DNA from: Trochalopteron elliotii
Lineage: Eukaryota > Chordata > Aves > Passeriformes > Leiothrichidae
Assembly: GCA_024734555.1 (NCBI GenBank)
Contig: JANPWX010000038.1
Location: 3,482,758-3,546,757, forward strand
Reading direction: 5' to 3'
Length of the DNA: 64,000 nt
Numbering within the stretch: the first letter of the stretch is position 1; the number at the start of each line of letters is the position of its first letter. The notes under the pieces are model-generated. The model was not told the origin of the DNA, did no database searches, and worked only from the letters and a program-made list of their open reading frames with translations. Of the stretch, positions 44,087 through 52,341 are shown in pieces. The position numbers were made by a program, and so were the translations under genes.

Positions 44087-44111
44087 GAAACTAACCTACC
44101 AAGGATGATGC

Positions 44112-44547
44112 TGATGCCTTAAGCTTTAGCTTTCATATTTGCAGATTCTGTGCTGCTTAGGTGTAGTTGTGAGCCTCATATTAAGTGCTAGTAAGCTCTC
44201 TTCACAGAGTAGGTAGACAAAACAATTTCTTTTCCTGCTGAAGGAAGGACAACTTTCAGCCCAAGAGCATAAACAATGGTGGACCGAAGAGAGGAAACAA
44301 GAAGGATGAGACCTCACAACCTGAAGCTGTGATTGGACAATTAAACCCCAATATGCAAATGAACCAAAACTTACAAAATGTAAGACCTCGTGACTGTTTA
44401 GCCATTTTCTGACCATTCTTATTCCACCTTGGGTGTAGCCCAGGTCAGTCCTGCCCAAGGTGGATCCTGGAGGCCTTTCAATAAATACCTACTTTAACCT
44501 CTAGTTCTGCCCAGTCTCTGTTTCAGGTCAGCCTTCCCAAGCCATCA
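44112..44547 (+). repeat. LTR-like unit, complete-looking (solo)
   Basis: It begins TGATGCC and ends GCCATCA, giving TG...CA with a short terminal inversion. It carries an ATGCAAAT octamer at 44353-44360, common in retroviral enhancers. It has AATAAA at 44480-44485, then a GT/CT-rich downstream stretch, so U3, R and U5 can be placed roughly. No gag or pol sequence is attached. The family was not identified; the organisation looks gammaretrovirus-like (class I). Confidence 0.72.
44480..44485 (+). terminator. LTR polyadenylation signal AATAAA
   Basis: Exact AATAAA in the distal part of the LTR-like unit, 62 bp before its CATCA end. This is a normal place for the R-region signal. Confidence 0.6.
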
Positions 44548-44555
44548 GTTTCTAT

Positions 44556-44599
44556 TTCTAATTCAAAGGTTGCGGGTTCGTGTCCCACCAGAGTCGCCA
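44556..44599 (+). pseudogene. tRNA-Arg(UCU) 3' half with CCA, reverse-transcribed
   Basis: The 44 nt match the mature tRNA from U33 to A76. The anticodon UCU is at 44557-44559, followed by the 3' anticodon stem, variable loop, T arm (TTCGTGT loop at 44577-44583), acceptor strand CCAGAGTCG and an untemplated-type CCA at 44597-44599. The anticodon arm runs on without an intron, although tRNA-Arg(UCU) genes commonly carry one after position 37. Together with the CCA this indicates an RNA template and not a gene copy. The 5' half is absent, so it cannot be a functional tRNA gene. The usual A58 is T (44581). The tRNA identity is from remembered sequence. Confidence 0.82.
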
Positions 44600-44604
44600 G
44601 AAAC

Positions 44605-44643
44605 TGATGCCTGAAAATATGAAAGCTAAAGCTTAAGGCATCA
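44605..44643 (-). repeat. Inverted, internally deleted LTR terminus
   Basis: These 39 bp start TGATGCC and end GGCATCA. Read on the minus strand they give the first 29 bp of the 44112 LTR, then a short CAGGCATCA end and the GTTTC leader pentamer. The minus strand is thus a miniature LTR followed by a tRNA-Arg-type primer-binding site (TGGCGACTCTGGTGGGAC). Confidence 0.72.
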
Positions 44644-44994
44644 ATGTGTTAACTGTCCACCTGCTGTGGCACTTGTGTTTCAACTTCATGGTGCCTGGGA
44701 GATGATATTTCACCACTTTCTCAGTGTTTCTTCCACCTATGCGTTACCACTCCTGCAGTTGGAATTAAGTTTTTGTGTTGTATTGCAGATATATTTAGGC
44801 TGGTTGTAAATGGACTTGAGGCATTTGTTTATGCTGGCAGCTGGCACTGGAGCTCTTTGATGGAGCACTGGCAGGTAAATGGTGATGGCTCTTGGAAGAC
44901 TTCTCTTGCCCAAAAGAAGGGACACCAGGTTAAAGACATCTGTGTATTAAGCCTTCTTAAGTCCACAGAATGTATTTCTCATCTGTATGAGGTT

Positions 44995-45689: not shown

Positions 45690-45694
45690 ATGTT
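45690..45694. repeat. Target-site duplication ATGTT (left)
   Basis: ATGTT lies immediately before the 5' LTR and is repeated exactly after the 3' LTR (52337-52341). This shows one intact integration with both original ends. Five bp fits class I and class III avian retroviruses better than class II (6 bp). Confidence 0.92.
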
Positions 45695-46297
45695 TGTCCT
45701 GGGTTGACGGTGCCTCCTATCCCAATTGTGCAGCTTTATCTCTATGTACTGCACTGTTATGTCTAACCGCTGCCCCCCCCCGCCCCTCGGTGGGGTGTTT
45801 TGCCGTGGTGGGGCTACTGGCTCTTTGGCTTTGGTTGCTAGCTCGGCTTGGCTGCAGGCTTTGCTTTGCTTTGCTTTACTGCTAGCTTTGCTTTACTTTG
45901 CTGCTGGCTTTGTTTTTTTTTTTGCTTTTGCTTTTGTTTTTTTCCCCTTTGCTGGTTTTCGCTGCTTTCGGTTTTTTTCCCTTTTCTTTTCTCTCCCTTC
46001 CCCCCCCGCTGAAGATCATTGGACCAGCTCCAGGCCTGACCTGGGAATATCTGGGGGTCCTCGACGCCTGAAGACAGAAGCTCTGTGCCCTCCCCTCACA
46101 GCAACTGCTTGAGTATTTTTCTTTTCCCTTGTGTTGGGGAGTGTCTTTGTTTATTTGTCAATAAATAAGTTTTTTCCACTTCTCCTCCGAGAAATTCCTT
46201 CTCAAACCCAGAGCTGGGGGGGGAAGGGGTGGTAGAAGTTTGTTTTTTGGGGAGCTCCTTCTGGAAACCTTCCCCTAATTTGTCCTAAACCAGGACA
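45695..46297 (+). repeat. 5' LTR of the endogenous retrovirus
   Basis: 603 bp, TGTCCTGGG...CCAGGACA. U3 is dominated by GCTTT-type repeats and T-rich pyrimidine tracts on the plus strand and lacks an obvious TATAAA box. AATAAA sits at 46160-46165. At 16 positions this copy has G where the 3' LTR has A, so it appears to be the unedited version. Confidence 0.95.
46160..46165 (+). terminator. Polyadenylation signal in 5' LTR
   Basis: Exact AATAAA in 'gtcaataaataagt', about 130 bp before the LTR end. In sense orientation within the host intron it could cause premature polyadenylation of host transcripts. Confidence 0.75.
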
Positions 46298-46306
46298 GTA
46301 TACTTT

Positions 46307-46324
46307 TGGTGCATTGGCCGGGAA
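46307..46324 (+). other. Primer-binding site for tRNA-Gly
   Basis: TGGTGCATTGGCCGGGAA is an exact 18/18 complement of the 3' end of vertebrate tRNA-Gly(GCC), including CCA (recalled end TTCCCGGCCAATGCACCA). It lies 9 bases after the LTR end, a longer gap than the usual 0-5. The match stops at base 18, as expected when plus-strand copying of the tRNA halts before m1A58. Confidence 0.9.
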
Positions 46325-46395
46325 AGGGCCAGAGGAAGTGGAAAAAACTTTAATAATAATATTGGTGGTTCTAATTGTTGTGTGAGTGTATTGGT

Positions 46396-46941
46396 ATGGT
46401 TTTTTCTGGATTCATAATGTCATTTGAGGTGGAAACCTGCCGGTATTTCTGGTCCCTAGGGTTTTTTGAAGTTTTAATACCTCTGTGGTACCTAGGGTTA
46501 CTTCCTTACCCAGAAATAGCTCTGGTATTTTCCCTAATACGTACTTCTTTTAGCCATGGGGTACTAACCAGAATACTCATTAGGCTGGGCTTGTTTGTAA
46601 TGATTTACAGGAGGGTTACAAAAATGCTGAAATCTGTTCCAGAAGTGTTTGGTTCATTGTTATGGGTGTTTACTCAGTTTGTTGGGGGAGAAGCAGGGGA
46701 AGGGGTTTTCCAGCCTCTGTTCTCCTTCTTCTCCTTTAGATTGCTTACATCTCCATTAGAAAATGTTCAGTCTCCCCTGAGTGTTAAAGAGACCATCTTT
46801 CTGGCATTTAATTTAATAAGTTTTTTCTATACTGTCCGTAGTTTATATAAAATGAAAGCTGAGATTTCCAAAGGGGCTAATGAGACTTCTGATTTAAGAG
46901 TAAAGCCAACCAAGAGAAATCTTGAGTGGAGTGGGAAATGA
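46396..46941 (+). CDS. Pre-gag ORF with several hydrophobic segments
   Basis: An open frame upstream of gag, 181 codons from ATG 46396 or 174 from ATG 46417, ending at TGA 46939-46941. It is rich in F, L, I, V and W. Counting from ATG 46396, hydrophobic stretches lie at about residues 17-49, 56-71, 86-97 and 131-146, followed by a basic, charged tail. No known domain was recognised. It is in the same frame as the gag ORF that begins 6 bases later. So it may be a separate small membrane protein, or the N-terminal part of a longer Gag cut by a G-to-A-type TGA. Low polar content makes chance openness possible but unlikely at this length inside an otherwise coding element. Confidence 0.5.
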   Translation: MVFSGFIMSFEVETCRYFWSLGFFEVLIPLWYLGLLPYPEIALVFSLIRTSFSHGVLTRILIRLGLFVMIYRRVTKMLKSVPEVFGSLLWVFTQFVGGEAGEGVFQPLFSFFSFRLLTSPLENVQSPLSVKETIFLAFNLISFFYTVRSLYKMKAEISKGANETSDLRVKPTKRNLEWSGK

Positions 46942-46947
46942 GAGGAT

Positions 46948-47691
46948 ATGAGCCAAATTTTAAAGGAATTCTCTGATCCTATAGTCTGGGACTTCCCATC
47001 TGAACAAATTCAGAACCCAGCTGAAGTGGCAAAGTACCTGAAAGAGAAGTGCCATGCCAATACTAAAGAGAAAAGGATTATTGTAGTGAGCTGGGCCCTG
47101 GCATATGTTTATCGTACTCTGCTAGATACTGCAAGGCAGCAGATAGAAGAAAGAGAACAAGGAAATAAATTAGTTACTATTCCAGTCACTCAGGCTGCAG
47201 CTAATATCCCAGGCTCCAGGCCAGTAGCTGAACGAGACAGTAGGCCTCAACCAATGGCTGTTGCTGCTAATACAAGAAGCAGAAAGTGTAAAAGCAAGAC
47301 CGATCGCAAGGTGGAGGATGATGATGATGATCCAGGAGAAGGACCTTCTCCAAAATCAGAAGCCACATCGAGGGGTACAGATTCTAAAGCCAATATTGAT
47401 TCCTTTTCCCTAAAAGACCTTCGAAGCCTAAGAAAAGACTACAAGCGACAACCCGATGAATCTATAATTAGTTGGTTAGTCTGCCTTTGGGATGCTGCAG
47501 AGAAAGCTACCATTCTAGATGACACCAAAGTGAAACATTTGAGATCTCTGTCACATAATCCTGTCATTGACCAAAGCATGATGAGGGAGGCTAGCCCTCA
47601 CAGTCTCTGGAAACAAATCCTGGACGGTGTAGCACAAAGATACCTGTGTGCAGATGACCTCTATTTGCTCAAACACAGTGAAAAACCATAG
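46948..47691 (+). pseudogene. gag: Endogenous retrovirus gag, N-terminal and capsid part
   Basis: An open frame of 247 codons from ATG 46948, ended by TAG 47689-47691. The N-terminal part is followed by a proline- and charge-rich linker with a run of Asp (about residues 124-128). A helical region from about residue 150 contains 'LKDLRSLRKDY' and 'SLWKQILDGVAQRYLCADDL', typical of a retroviral capsid. The assignment rests on position between the primer site and protease and on overall composition. The reading continues one frame over after about 47682, so a one-base shift as well as a stop breaks it here. Confidence 0.75.
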
Positions 47692-48368
47692 AACAGAAGA
47701 TCCAACGTCTGAGAGAGATGGCAATAGCAGAGCTCATTTTTTCAGATAACATAACAACTAGGAATCCAGACTTGGTACCATGTACACCTGTAATGTGGAG
47801 GAAACTTGTGCGACTTGGGCCACCTGAATATGCTTCTGCTCTAGCAATAATGAAGCGGGATGAGACATATGAGACTGTGCTCGATATGGCGAAGAAGCTT
47901 CGAGCATATGCAGATGCTGTACATGGCCCAGCTCATGCCAGAATTGCAGCTGTGGAAACACGTCTACAGAAACTAGAAGATAGGATAAAGGAGAATCACA
48001 AGAAACTCAGAGAAGAGATTAGAGAAGACCTCTTCCAAATTTCAGCAGTACAGATCAGAGGTTCTGGTACCCAACGCAGACGTTCCCCAGATAGGGAGAG
48101 AAGGTACACTCCACGAGCTGAGTTGTGGTTCTTCCTGCGTGAGTCTGGAGAAAACATGAGGAGATGGGATGGAAAACCCACTGCTGCTCTGGCACAGCAA
48201 GTACATGAACTAAAAAAAGGCAAGACCCAGAGAGGAAGTTCCACCAAAAAGGAAGCAGCTCCAATTGCCCGTAGGCAAACTGCCAGATATGATGATGATG
48301 ACATGTCCAGTCCCCTTGAAGAAACCTCTAAGACATATGCCCAAGGAAAGAAAAAAAACCAGGCCTAG
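47682..48368 (+). pseudogene. gag: Endogenous retrovirus gag, C-terminal part with coiled coil
   Basis: Open in the same frame as the downstream pol until TAG 48366-48368. The first internal ATG is at 47718. A capsid-like stretch (PVMWRKLVRLGPPEYASALA) is followed by a heptad-rich, probably coiled-coil segment (RIAAVETRLQKLEDRIKE), then a basic Arg/Lys tail suited to RNA binding. No CCHC zinc knuckle is visible, unlike orthoretroviral nucleocapsids and as in several class III elements. The closing TAG may be the natural gag terminus or an acquired stop. It is in frame with protease, so stop read-through is possible in the parent element. Confidence 0.7.
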
Positions 48369-48710
48369 AGGGGCCATGCCTCTAGCCAGGTAGAGGCTAG
48401 GGAAAATCGTGTTTTTTGGAATGTGTGGATTCGTTGGCCTGGCATGTCTGAACCACAAGAATATGAGGCCTTGGTCAATACTGGTGCACAGTGCACATTA
48501 ATTCCATCAACACATGTAGGGGCAGAATCTGTTTCTATTGCTGGTGTGACCGGAGGATCACAAGACTATACGTTGGTGGAGGCAGAGGTGAGCCTGACTA
48601 GAAATGAGTGAAAGAAACACCTTATTACAACTGGCCCAGAGGCCCCATGCATTTTGGGCATAGACTACCTTCGGAGTGGGTATTTCAAAGACCCTAAGAG
48701 ACTCAAATGA
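48369..48710 (+). pseudogene. pro: Retroviral aspartic protease, broken
   Basis: The frame runs on from gag. The catalytic-loop region reads EALVNTGAQCTLIPS, where retropepsins have Asp-Thr-Gly. The codon at 48477-48479 is AAT, so the catalytic aspartate is Asn. A second conserved block reads ILGIDYLRSG near 48654-48683. In-frame stops TGA 48609-48611 and TGA 48708-48710 interrupt it. The frame itself is kept, so the damage is by substitution and not by indel. Confidence 0.75.
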
Positions 48711-49835
48711 GCATTTGGAATAGCAGCTGTAGTGACAAAGAGCATCCAGCAATTGAACACCTTGCCTGGACTGTCCAAGAATCCGTCGACAGTAAGACTT
48801 CTGAAGGGGGAAGAGCAACAGGTACCAATTGCCACTTCAATAGTGCACCGCCGACAGTATAGAACAACTCGAGATGCCGTGATCCCCATTCATAAGATGA
48901 TCCGTGAGCTGGAGAGTCAAGGGGTGGTCAGCAAAACCCACTCACCCTTCAACAGCCCCATCTGGCCTGTGCGAAAATCTGAAAGAAAATGAAGACTGAC
49001 TGTGGACTATCGTACATTAAATGAAGTGACTCCACCGCTGAACGCTGCTGTGCCAGACATGTTGGTGCTCCAGTACGAGCTGGAGTCCAAGGCAGCAAGG
49101 TGGTATGCCACTATTGACATTGCCAATGCATTTTTCTCCATTCCTTTAGCAGTAGAGTGCAGGCCTCAGTTTGCCTTCACATGGAGGGGAGTGCAATACA
49201 CCTGAAACCGACTGCCCCAGGGGTAGAAGCACAGTCCTACCATCTGCCATGGACTGATCCAAGCTGCACTGGAAAAAGGTGAGGCTCCAGAACACCTACA
49301 GTATATTGATGACATCATTGTGTAGAAGAACACAGCAGCAGAAGTGTTTGAGAAAGGAAAGAAAATCATCCAGATCCTCCTGGAAGCCGGTTTCGCTATC
49401 AAGAAGAGTAAAGTTAAGGGACCAGCCCATGAGATCCAGTTCTTGGGAGTAAAGTGGGAAGATGGACGGCATCAGATTCCTACTGACGTCGTCAACAAGA
49501 TTACAGCAATGTCTCCACCAACCAGCAAGAAGGAAACACAAGCTTTCCTAGGCGCCATAGGCTTTTGGAGAATGCATATCCCTGAGTACAGTCAGATCGT
49601 GAGCCCTCTCTACCTGGTTACCCGTAAGAAGAACGATTTCCACTGGGGCCCCGAACAGCAGCAAGCCTTTGCCCAGATCAAGCAGGAGATCGCTCATGCA
49701 ATGGCCCTTGGCCCAGTCAGGACAGGACCAGATGTGAAGAACGTGCTCTACTCTGCAGCTGAGAGCCATGGTCTGTCCTGGAGCCTTTGGCAGAAAGTGC
49801 CTGGGGAGACTCGAGGCCGCCCACTAGGATTTTGA
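48711..49835 (+). pseudogene. pol: Retroviral reverse transcriptase, broken
   Basis: Clear RT motifs in order: PIHKMIRELESQGVV (fingers), SPFNSPIWPVRK, VDYRTLNEVTPP, YATIDIANAFFSIPL (motif A Asp present), LPQG followed by a stop, the active-site box YIDDIIV followed by a stop, and FLGVKWEDG and FLGAIGFWRMHIPEY in the thumb. In-frame stops are TGA 48990, TGA 49203, TAG 49224, TAG 49323 and TGA 49833. Two fall directly after LPQG and after YIDDIIV, where related enzymes have Trp. No frameshift is seen. Confidence 0.92.
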
Positions 49836-50650
49836 AGTCAAAGCTACAAAGAAGCCAAAGCCAGCTACACTCCAACTGAGAAAGAAATTTTAGCAGCCTA
49901 TGAAGGAATCCAAGCTGCCTCAGAGGTGATTGGCACAGAAGCACAACTCCTCCTGGCACCCCGACTACCAGTGTTAGAGTGAATGTTCAAAGGAAAGGTC
50001 CCCACCACCCACCATGCCACCAATGCCACATGGAGCAAGTGGATTGCTCTAATTACACAGCGCACCCGTATGGGTAAATTGAATCGTCCTGAGATTTTGG
50101 AAGTGATTACAAATTGGCCTGAAGGTGAAAGTCTTAGTCTCACAGATGAAGAACCAGAACAAGTGACACGGGCTGAAGAAGCTCCACCATATAATCAACT
50201 GCCAGCAGAGGAGACACATTATGCTCTTTTCACTGACAGTTCCTGCCGCATTGTAGGGACAAACCAGAAGTGGAAAGCAGCTGTGTGGAGCCCCACACGA
50301 CAAGTTGCTGAAGCCACTGAAAGAGATGGTGAATCAAGCCAACTTACAGAACTCAAAACCGTTCAATTGGCCCTGGACATTGCTGAGAAAAAAAAGTGGC
50401 CAAAACTCTACCTCTATACTGATTCATGTATGGTAGCCAATGCTCTGTGGGGATGGCTAGAGAAGTAGAGAAAAGCTAATTAGCAGCGTAGAAGAAAACC
50501 AATTTGGGTTGCTGAAGAGTAGAAAGACATTGCTACCAAAGTAGAAAGACTACCTGTGAAAGTCCGCCATGTAAATGCTCATATCCCCAAAAGTAGAGCT
50601 AATGAGGAGCATCAAAACAATAAGCAAATAAATCAGGCTGTAAAAATAGA
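49836..50650 (+). pseudogene. pol: Retroviral RNase H with connection domain, broken
   Basis: The connection region (YTPTEKEILAAYEGIQAA, LLLAPRLPVLE) is followed by a type 1 RNase H. First acidic block YALFTDSS (about 50220), Glu block SQLTELKTVQLALDIA (about 50339), Asp block LYLYTDS (about 50409), and the last catalytic block near 50625, which reads with Asn where the family has Asp. In-frame stops are TGA 49980, TAG 50466, TAG 50481 and TAG 50520. Frame is preserved. Confidence 0.88.
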
Positions 50651-51548
50651 AGTGTCAAAGATAGACTTAGATTAAAAACACAAAGGAGAGTTGTTCCTAA
50701 CCCGATGGGCCCACGATGCCTCAGGTCATCAGGACAAAGACGCCACCTATAAGTAAGCACGAAACCGAGAGGTGAATCTAACCTTAGACGGTATTTCTCA
50801 AGTTATCCACGATTGTGAAACGTGTGCTGCCATCAAACAGGCCAAGCAAGTGAAGCCCCTATAGTATAGTAGACAGTAGTGCAAATACAAGTATAGAGAA
50901 GCCTGGCAAATTGATTATATCACATTACCGCAGACACGTCAAGGTAAGCACTACGTGCTCACAATGGTGAAAGCCACCACGGGGTTGCTGAAAACCTACC
51001 CTGTTTCTCATGCTACAGCCCGTAACACCATCCTGGGCCTTGAGAAGCAAGTCCTGTAGAGACATAGTACGCCTGAAAAGATTAAGTCAGACAACAGGAC
51101 TCATTTCAAAAACAGCCTTATCAGCACGTGGGCTAGGGAACACGACATTGAGTAAGTGTACCATATTCCCTACCACGCACCAACTGCTAGGAAAGTGGAG
51201 AAGCACAATGCACTGTTAAAAACCCAGTTGAAAACATTGAGTAAAAAATCTTTCAAAAGCTGAGAGCAGCATTTAGCAAAAGCCACCTGGTTGGTTAACA
51301 CCCGAGGTTCCACCAACCGAGCGGGTCCTGCTCAGTCTGAGCTCCTTAATATCGTAGATAAAGATAAAGCCCCAGTGGCCCATGTCAGAGGTTTATTAAG
51401 AAAGACAGTATAGACCAACCCTGCCTCAAGTACAGGCAAACCCATCCGTGGAATTGTTTTTGCTCAAAGACCAAGTTGTACATGGTAGATAATGCAAAAA
51501 GATGAAATAACACACTGTGTACCTCAAGAAAATCTGAATGTGAGGTAA
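50651..51548 (+). pseudogene. pol: Retroviral integrase, heavily broken
   Basis: The N-terminal zinc-binding HHCC motif is readable as HDASGH (about 50709) and CETC (about 50817). Catalytic-core blocks are present: IDYITLPQ (first Asp), SDNRTHF (second Asp) and a RKVEKHN block with the Glu. In-frame stops are TAA 50673, TAA 50754, TAG 50862, TAG 50877, TAG 51057, TAA 51153, TGA 51261, TAG 51411 and TAG 51486, with TAA 51546 perhaps the natural end. It is the most densely interrupted part of the element, again without frameshifts. Confidence 0.85.
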
Positions 51549-51705
51549 GACTCTTATATAAATGTCATTGTTGGCTGAATGTTACTACATAGAACAGAAA
51601 AGAACGTATAAGTGTCAAAAGTCTGAGCAAATAAAATAGAAAGAAATGTGTAAGTGTTGAAAGTTTAAGTAAGTGAGATACAAGTTTTTTATTGTATGTT
51701 CACGA

Positions 51706-51724
51706 TATGGGATAAGGGGTGGAA
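51706..51724 (+). other. Polypurine tract
   Basis: The purine-rich run 'tatgggataaggggtggaa' abuts the 3' LTR exactly, where plus-strand synthesis is primed. A few pyrimidines interrupt it. Confidence 0.75.
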
Positions 51725-52336
51725 TGTCCTGAGTTAACAGTGCCTCCTATCCCAATCGTGCAGCTTTATCTCTATGTACTGCACTGTTATGTCTAACCGC
51801 TGCCCGCCCCCCCCTCGGTGGGGTGTTTTGCCATGGTGGGGCTACTGGCTCTTTAGCTTTAGTTGCTAGCTCGGCTTGGCTGCAGGCTTTGCTTTGCTTT
51901 GCTTTACTGCTAGCTTTGCTTTACTTTGCTGCTGGCTTTGTTTTTTTTTTTTTTTTTTGCTTTTGCTTTTGTTTTTTTCCCCTTTGCTGGTTTTCGCTGC
52001 TTTCGTTTTTTTTTCCCTTTTCTTTTCTCTCCCTTCCCCTCCTCCCCCGAAGATCATTAGACCAGCTCCAAACCTGATCTGGGAATACCTAGAAGTCCTC
52101 AATGCCTGAAAACAGAAGCTCTGCACCCTCCCCTCACAGCAACTGCTTGAGTATTTTTTCTTTTCCCTTGTGTTGGGGAGTGTCTTTGTTTATTTGTCAA
52201 TAAATAAGTTTTTTCCACTTCTCCTCCGAGAAATTCCTTCTCAAACCCAGAGCTGGGGGGGGAAGGGGTGGTAGAAGTTTGTTTTTTGGGGAGCTCCTTC
52301 TGGAAACCTTCCCCTAATTTGTCCTAAACCAAGACA
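51725..52336 (+). repeat. 3' LTR of the endogenous retrovirus
   Basis: 612 bp, TGTCCTGAG...CCAAGACA. It is collinear with the 5' LTR. Outside homopolymer runs I count about 22 substitutions, of which 16 are G in the 5' LTR and A here; none is A in the 5' LTR and G here. Five are T/C in mixed directions and one is G/T. The T-run is longer here (about 18). Confidence 0.95.
52199..52204 (+). terminator. Polyadenylation signal in 3' LTR
   Basis: Exact AATAAA, the counterpart of the signal in the 5' LTR, with an unchanged sequence context. Confidence 0.75.
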
Positions 52337-52341
52337 ATGTT
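52337..52341. repeat. Target-site duplication ATGTT (right)
   Basis: Exact copy of 45690-45694 directly after the 3' LTR. Confidence 0.92.

Follow-up and report, generated by a model that had tools for sequence, protein, structure and literature searches.

How does one half of a mature tRNA come to lie inside a palindrome made of two retroviral ends? Positions 44,112 to 44,643 of the window (the whole 64,000-nucleotide stretch of Trochalopteron elliotii DNA analyzed here) raise this question. They hold a complete long terminal repeat (LTR), the 3′ half of a tRNA-Arg(UCU) and a much shorter LTR in inverted orientation.

Results and Discussion

Architecture of the palindrome

An initial annotation, made from the sequence alone, had described an LTR, the pentamer GTTTC, a tRNA half, GAAAC and an inverted arm, and every one of these parts was found in its place (Table 1). 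The terminal inverted repeat, first described as 29 matches in 29 positions, is real and slightly longer, with 32 of 33 positions identical. The computed expectation for such a terminal inverted pair within the window is approximately 1e-10 by chance. An inner inverted repeat, formed by the LTR end and the leader, matches at 11 of 12 positions. Both outer ends of the palindrome are U3 starts, and the TG..CA ends of the LTR are as in LTRs of class I (gamma-like) endogenous retroviruses. The flanking tetranucleotides fit the 4-bp duplication of the LTR family with one mismatch; a 4-base duplication with at most one mismatch has a chance of about 5%, which counts against that of the window.

Table 1. 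Features of the palindrome and its flanks, in window positions
Feature	Position	Strand	Remark
Probable target duplication, left copy ATGC	44108..44111	.	3/4 match to right copy ATGT; 4-bp length from family copies
Full LTR (U3-R-U5), TGATGCC...GCCATCA, 436 bp	44112..44547	+	Multi-copy family, 4-bp target duplications
Leader pentamer GTTTC, between U5 and PBS; U5 end unprocessed	44548..44552	+	
Junction TAT	44553..44555	+	T probably opens the PBS, as the copy of tRNA A76; A and T possibly correspond to tRNA A31 and to C32 misread as T
tRNA-Arg(UCU) positions 33-76, 44 nt, spliced, with CCA	44556..44599	+ (tRNA sense)	39/44 to the L044 gene, 40/44 to L024
tRNA position 58, T in place of conserved A (m1A58)	44581..44581	+	
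Primer-binding site (PBS), 18 nt, TGGCGACTCTGGTGGGAC	44582..44599	-	
Right-arm leader pentamer GTTTC (GAAAC on +)	44600..44604	-	
Inverted 39-bp mini-LTR, 33 bp of U3 start and last 6 bp of U5	44605..44643	-	AG shared at joint
Probable target duplication, right copy ATGT	44644..44647	.	

Read on the minus strand from 44,643 to 44,582, the right arm has the U3-R-U5-leader-PBS layout of plus-strand strong-stop DNA, with approximately 397 bp missing inside. The earlier description of this arm as a mini-LTR followed by the leader GTTTC and a tRNA-Arg-type primer site is therefore correct. The tRNA copy runs to position 33, past the point before position 58 where strong-stop DNA ends, and thus has the read-through form. 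At 39 bp, the right arm is too short to prove that it was once a full LTR. At its internal joint (TTTTCAG/GCATCA), AG is common to both sides because 73 of the 92 family LTRs described below end with AGGCATCA.

A solo LTR of the same family has the LTR, the TG..CA ends and the 4-bp target duplication in common with the palindrome, whereas the leader, the tRNA and the inverted mini-LTR are additions; as these lie between the duplications, the locus is not a solo LTR. With inverted arms, no purine tract between them and a single occurrence, it is not a TRIM-type or other non-autonomous LTR element either. Nor is it a tRNA-derived SINE, which has a whole tRNA head, a tail and many copies: only the 3′ half of the tRNA is present, at two places genome-wide. 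The element has no coding part.

The LTR family and its primer-binding sites

The window LTR has at least 66 matches in the assembly (best 40 of 2963 first-look candidates scored). Thirty-nine other long matches end at query positions 436 to 444, and none of them reaches the tRNA half, which starts at query position 445. From a sample of 123 loci, seven that were window copies or carried tRNA only were set aside. The remaining 116 yielded 92 distinct LTRs; 16 were dropped by filters on length, end and identity, and eight were repeats of the same LTR. This set kept only copies with TG..CA ends and cannot itself test those ends. Among 64 family LTRs without a leader, the 4-bp target duplication is exact in 34 and within one mismatch in 50; at other lengths the same 64 have no exact duplication of 5 bp and four of 3 bp. 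Since the closest relative among the fetched copies is 92.9% identical without gaps, the window insertion is probably not recent.

The family shares 4-bp target duplications and a tRNA PBS beside U5 with class I (gamma-like) endogenous retroviruses. Of three pieces of L024, a relative with the same LTR, one matches RNase H (PF00075, 6.9e-8). This piece also matches nine solved structures, whose names are RT/RNase H (p80), RNase H or XMRV RNase H. The parent element was probably an endogenous retrovirus of class I-like type that used arginine tRNAs as primers, an assignment that shares the moderate confidence we place in the explanation below as a whole. Exact LTR or PBS patterns had no matches in viral contigs or in bacterial and archaeal genomes.

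Parent proviruses should show the leader and the PBS, and such sites are present. A pattern of LTR end, GTTTC and Arg-type PBS occurs at 38 places with up to two mismatches, and its reversed control at none; the pattern itself demands this leader and PBS form, so that PBSs of other form are missed. One of the 38 places (L095) aligns only with the LTR end, and two others (L102 and L116) could not be aligned usefully to the LTR. Merging identical stretches leaves 36 that bear a PBS, 30 of them with exactly GTTTC as leader. We take the PBSs of the merged stretches to be CCU-like in 23, UCG-like in eight, UCU-like in four and of another kind in one. The UCU-like sites are those of the window, L093, L107 and L116. 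The commonest form is two to three bases off the 3′ end of a tRNA-Arg-CCU copy at L124, which L109 fits exactly. One LTR family (L085 to L121) thus carries PBSs like several arginine isoacceptors (CCU, UCG and UCU), as if the PBS had been rewritten by whichever tRNA-Arg primed.

Past the PBS, 35 of the 38 places do not go on as tRNA. The usual internal sequence, GAGGCATC, lies within the next 12 bases in 23 of these 35 ordinary copies (21 of 33 after merging), and the base directly after the PBS is A in 28 of them (26 of 33). The tRNA continues in the other three places, namely the window, L036 and L113, and a search of the assembly for the read-through pattern returned the same three and no more (reversed control 0). 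We can therefore rule out that the tRNA segment is ordinary internal sequence of the family, and the initial argument that tRNA beyond 18 nt needs another explanation stands.

Five LTR copies (L088, L098, L109, L112 and L115) end 35 nt past U5, after the PBS and AGTGAGGCATCA or a close variant of it. At this farther end, an exact 4-bp duplication is present in two of the five (GAGG in L088, GGTT in L109), one matches at three of four positions and two have none. This suggests either that integrase can act at an alternative terminus or that the PBS was incorporated into the LTR.

A separate provirus lies nearby, at positions 45,690 to 52,341. Its LTRs are 93.6% identical over 614 bp and have the ends TGTCCTG..GACA; the flanking 5-bp duplication is ATGTT as read by eye. 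Its PBS, TGGTGCATTGGCCGGG, presumably corresponds to tRNA-Gly. On the basis of its LTR ends, the 5-bp duplication and this PBS assignment, the provirus is perhaps ERVL-like.

The tRNA half and other tRNA-Arg copies

The identification of the captured half as tRNA-Arg(UCU) is borne out by its match to L044, the only tRNA-Arg-TCT gene found in the assembly. This gene has a 13-nt intron at the anticodon. When L044 is spliced and provided with CCA, the window half agrees with positions 33-76 at 39 of 44 sites and differs at 49, 58, 64, 65 and 67. A UCU half at L024 also agrees at 39 of 44, with differences at 51, 61, 64, 65 and 67, and the two halves agree with each other at 40 of 44. The differences at 64, 65 and 67, which the two halves have in common, look like another isodecoder when the sequences are compared; a gene with the exact 3′ end of the window copy was not found in the assembly within two mismatches. 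The L024 half itself looks mixed between two isodecoders.

The core pattern of the spliced half occurs in 1.04 Gb only in the window and L024, both times exactly; its reversed control gave seven matches with up to two mismatches, so that weak matches mean little. A tRNA gene in the window is ruled out: the 13-nt intron of L044 is absent, CCA is present, only half of the tRNA is there, and ARAGORN and Rfam reported none in the window. When the assembly was searched for a tRNA-Arg-CCU gene, the sole matches were L113, L024 and the pseudogene at L124.

This LTR is associated with more than one tRNA capture, and no two of them are alike: L036, L113 and L024 carry tRNA-Arg cDNA in other arrangements. 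L036 has an LTR with an intact U3 start, GTTTC, the complement of tRNA-Arg-CCU to position 48 and then unrelated DNA; no matching duplication was seen beyond the tRNA part. In L113, the LTR is matched only from about position 193 on and is followed by GTTTC and the complement of tRNA-Arg-CCU from 76 to 26, after which 11 nt of the D arm are skipped (relative to L124) and the copy reads on through about 14-9. L024 comprises pol with RNase H, the complement of a tRNA-Arg-CCU half, the tRNA-Arg-UCU half with CCA, a purine tract and the LTR. Its two tRNA halves stand head to head at 1459-1556, with pol on one side and the purine tract on the other. The 185-base junction stretch of L024 has 17 matches, which are itself, the window, L113 and 14 that cover the pol side only; these 14 of the 16 other matches end before the tRNA part. 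Insertion of such DNAs by integrase is suggested by the window alone, L036 being without a duplication and the LTR of L113 being truncated.

L124 (47-113) is a tRNA-Arg-CCU retropseudogene that spans approximately positions 10-76 and includes CCA; it has T at both 32 and 58 and A at 57, and its anticodon stem lacks one C. Like the copy in the window, it is a tRNA-Arg copy with CCA and T at position 58. Unlike that copy, it derives from Arg-CCU, covers more of the tRNA and shows no match to the window LTR in the 450-500 bp on each side.

Origin of the palindrome

How might these parts have been joined? With moderate confidence, we propose that the window contains a germline insertion of dead-end plus-strand strong-stop DNA. 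Synthesis of this DNA would have continued into the primer tRNA beyond m1A58, a second U5 end would have been attached to it head-to-head, and the two outward U3 ends would have served for integration. On the minus strand, the right arm consists of the U3 start (with the internal deletion), the U5 end, GTTTC and the PBS, followed by the tRNA complement to position 33. This strand is continued by the complement of another U5-R-U3, this one full, beginning with GTTTC and one T. Reverse transcriptase would have passed m1A58 by inserting A, which gives T on the tRNA strand, and would then have reached the anticodon loop at m3C32. There it may have switched, or its product may have been joined, to another unprocessed U5 end. 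Removal of the tRNA from that end except for its last nucleotide would account for GTTTCT; in HIV, RNase H is described as leaving the last tRNA nucleotide at the U5 end (PMC5618025). A second study describes strong-stop products extended beyond the T loop as unable to undergo the second strand transfer (PMC13191261). The linear product would have had two outward U3 ends and could have been inserted by integrase with a 4-bp duplication. The loss of approximately 397 bp from one arm, at the joint that shares AG, would have occurred before or after insertion. Palindromes are unstable, and the mini-LTR could also arise by post-integration deletion. The initial annotation had likewise proposed that aberrant reverse transcription through the primer tRNA gave a cDNA with two outward U3 ends for integrase to insert. 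This idea is supported by the PBSs of the family, by the 35 of 38 places without tRNA continuation and by the near-matching flanks, although we infer the exact path.

A single molecule would suffice for the same palindrome if a strong-stop DNA, read to the anticodon loop, had folded back, primed synthesis from its 3′ end AGAA at the GTTTCT leader of the same molecule and thereby copied the LTR that it carried, with the hairpin later opened to a linear palindrome. The four nucleotides of AGAA are indeed complementary to TTCT in the leader. However, such a hairpin has a single U3 end until it is opened, and the two arms differ once at the U5 end and again at a site variable among family members (TTTGCAG on the left, TTTTCAG on the right; 17 G, 47 T and 28 unscored among the 92 LTRs). 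The difference at the variable site is a weak hint, taken from sequence comparison, at two parents, but mutation can do likewise. We consider this self-primed route unlikely.

Retroviral DNA ends from which the tRNA primer was not removed provide another starting point. A polymerase of host or viral origin could have filled in such an end, which host end-joining would then have linked to another U5 end. Inserts of PBS or tRNA primer sequence beside an unprocessed U5 end have been reported from HIV-1 2-LTR circle junctions and ascribed to faulty primer removal or mispriming (PMC5618025). The window likewise has an unprocessed U5 end followed by primer-derived sequence, and GTTTC is unprocessed on both sides of the tRNA. 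In contrast to those junctions, its U5 ends meet head to head, its tRNA sequence extends to the anticodon loop, and it resides in a host genome assembly. Taken alone, this route, unlike strong-stop DNA, leaves unexplained why the U3 ends face outward and neither arm has internal sequence, and we regard it as decidedly improbable. Autointegration was also considered and is ruled out, as the U5 ends at the joint are unprocessed and GTTTC is kept on both sides.

Could the arrangement instead have formed within the genome, by partial inversion of a solo LTR or provirus and chance insertion of a tRNA retropseudogene at the joint? L124 demonstrates that a tRNA-Arg retropseudogene exists without this LTR in its fetched flanks. 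In the window, however, the tRNA stands exactly in PBS register with CCA against GAAAC, read-through tRNA in the same register recurs in L036 and L113, and the palindrome has U3 at its two outer ends and a nearly matching duplication around it. We judge such a rearrangement very improbable. The propagating multi-copy element that the initial annotation had envisaged is scarcely credible, for despite the size of the LTR family (2963 first-look candidates, best 40 scored), the full junction was found once in the assembly (best 40 of 111 candidates scored) and the three read-through places include one palindrome.

Possible scars of tRNA modification

Read-through of the primer, as we favor it, would have copied positions that are modified in the mature tRNA. 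Position 58 is A in the L044 gene and T in the window copy. T (in tRNA sense) is also found at 58 in L036 and L124, and A58 is kept in L113 and both halves of L024; L036 and L124 were judged against L113, L024 and the usual tRNA-Arg-CCU sequence, no CCU gene having been found. As a rough post hoc estimate with hand-entered mismatch counts, the probability that three of six tRNA-Arg copies differ at one named site is about 0.02; with the further demand that all three changes be A to T, it is about 0.0007. Plus-strand synthesis normally stops at m1A58, a modification that retroviral primer tRNAs, tRNA-Arg among them, are said to carry; mutation of the m1A58 enzyme reportedly leads to extension past 58 (PMC13191261). 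Bypass of m1A by reverse transcriptase leads to misincorporations, with a C signal that is low if G comes next (PMC4787781), as it does at position 58 in the window. The A58-to-T change is thus plausible as a modification scar. In principle, the A opposite position 58 could also be viral in origin, as 28 of 35 ordinary copies have A after the PBS.

The second position of interest is C32. m3C32 is reported in mammalian tRNA-Arg-UCU and -CCU, with extension to vertebrates, and reverse transcription is blocked at 32 in Arg-CCU (PMC7237682); m3C causes arrest or misincorporation (PMC7969016). The window copy ends at U33, directly 3′ of C32, and the next window bases are T and A. This left junction is ambiguous: the two bases could be m3C32 read as T followed by a retained A31, or the copy may have stopped at U33, with AGAA/TTCT microhomology and a duplication of TTTCTA. 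C32 is kept in L113, and L024 has C there, adjoining its own joint. We tentatively suggest, while rating it somewhat below even, that an Arg-tRNA-primed retrovirus lineage repeatedly read through its primer, that its dead-end strong-stop DNAs entered the germline, and that A58-to-T, C32-to-T and the ends in the anticodon loop record RNA modifications.

Relation to known products

The closest parallel to the proposed intermediate is strong-stop DNA extended past m1A58, which, like the window sequence, consists of U3-R-U5-leader-PBS and further tRNA complement (PMC13191261). As described in that study, the product is a viral intermediate that cannot go on, whereas its derivative in the window appears integrated and has T at 58. 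Chimeras of LINE-1 with other RNAs (PMC13174262) also join an element's own sequence to cellular RNA by the copying machinery of a retroelement, but the window involves an LTR element, a primer tRNA and integrase-type ends. In the open-access literature searched, we recognized neither an account of a genomic LTR-tRNA-LTR palindrome nor one of integrated strong-stop DNA or of LTR-tRNA chimeras, which is a weak negative.

Implications

If the proposed origin is true, dead-end read-through DNAs can integrate through two U3 ends, and old modification states of primer tRNAs can be read from genomes. The same reading predicts that LTR-tRNA chimeras elsewhere will show changes or end points at m1A58 and at modifications of the anticodon loop. 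Genomes would then hold, in their LTR-tRNA chimeras, a record of reverse transcription that failed and of how tRNAs were modified in the distant past.
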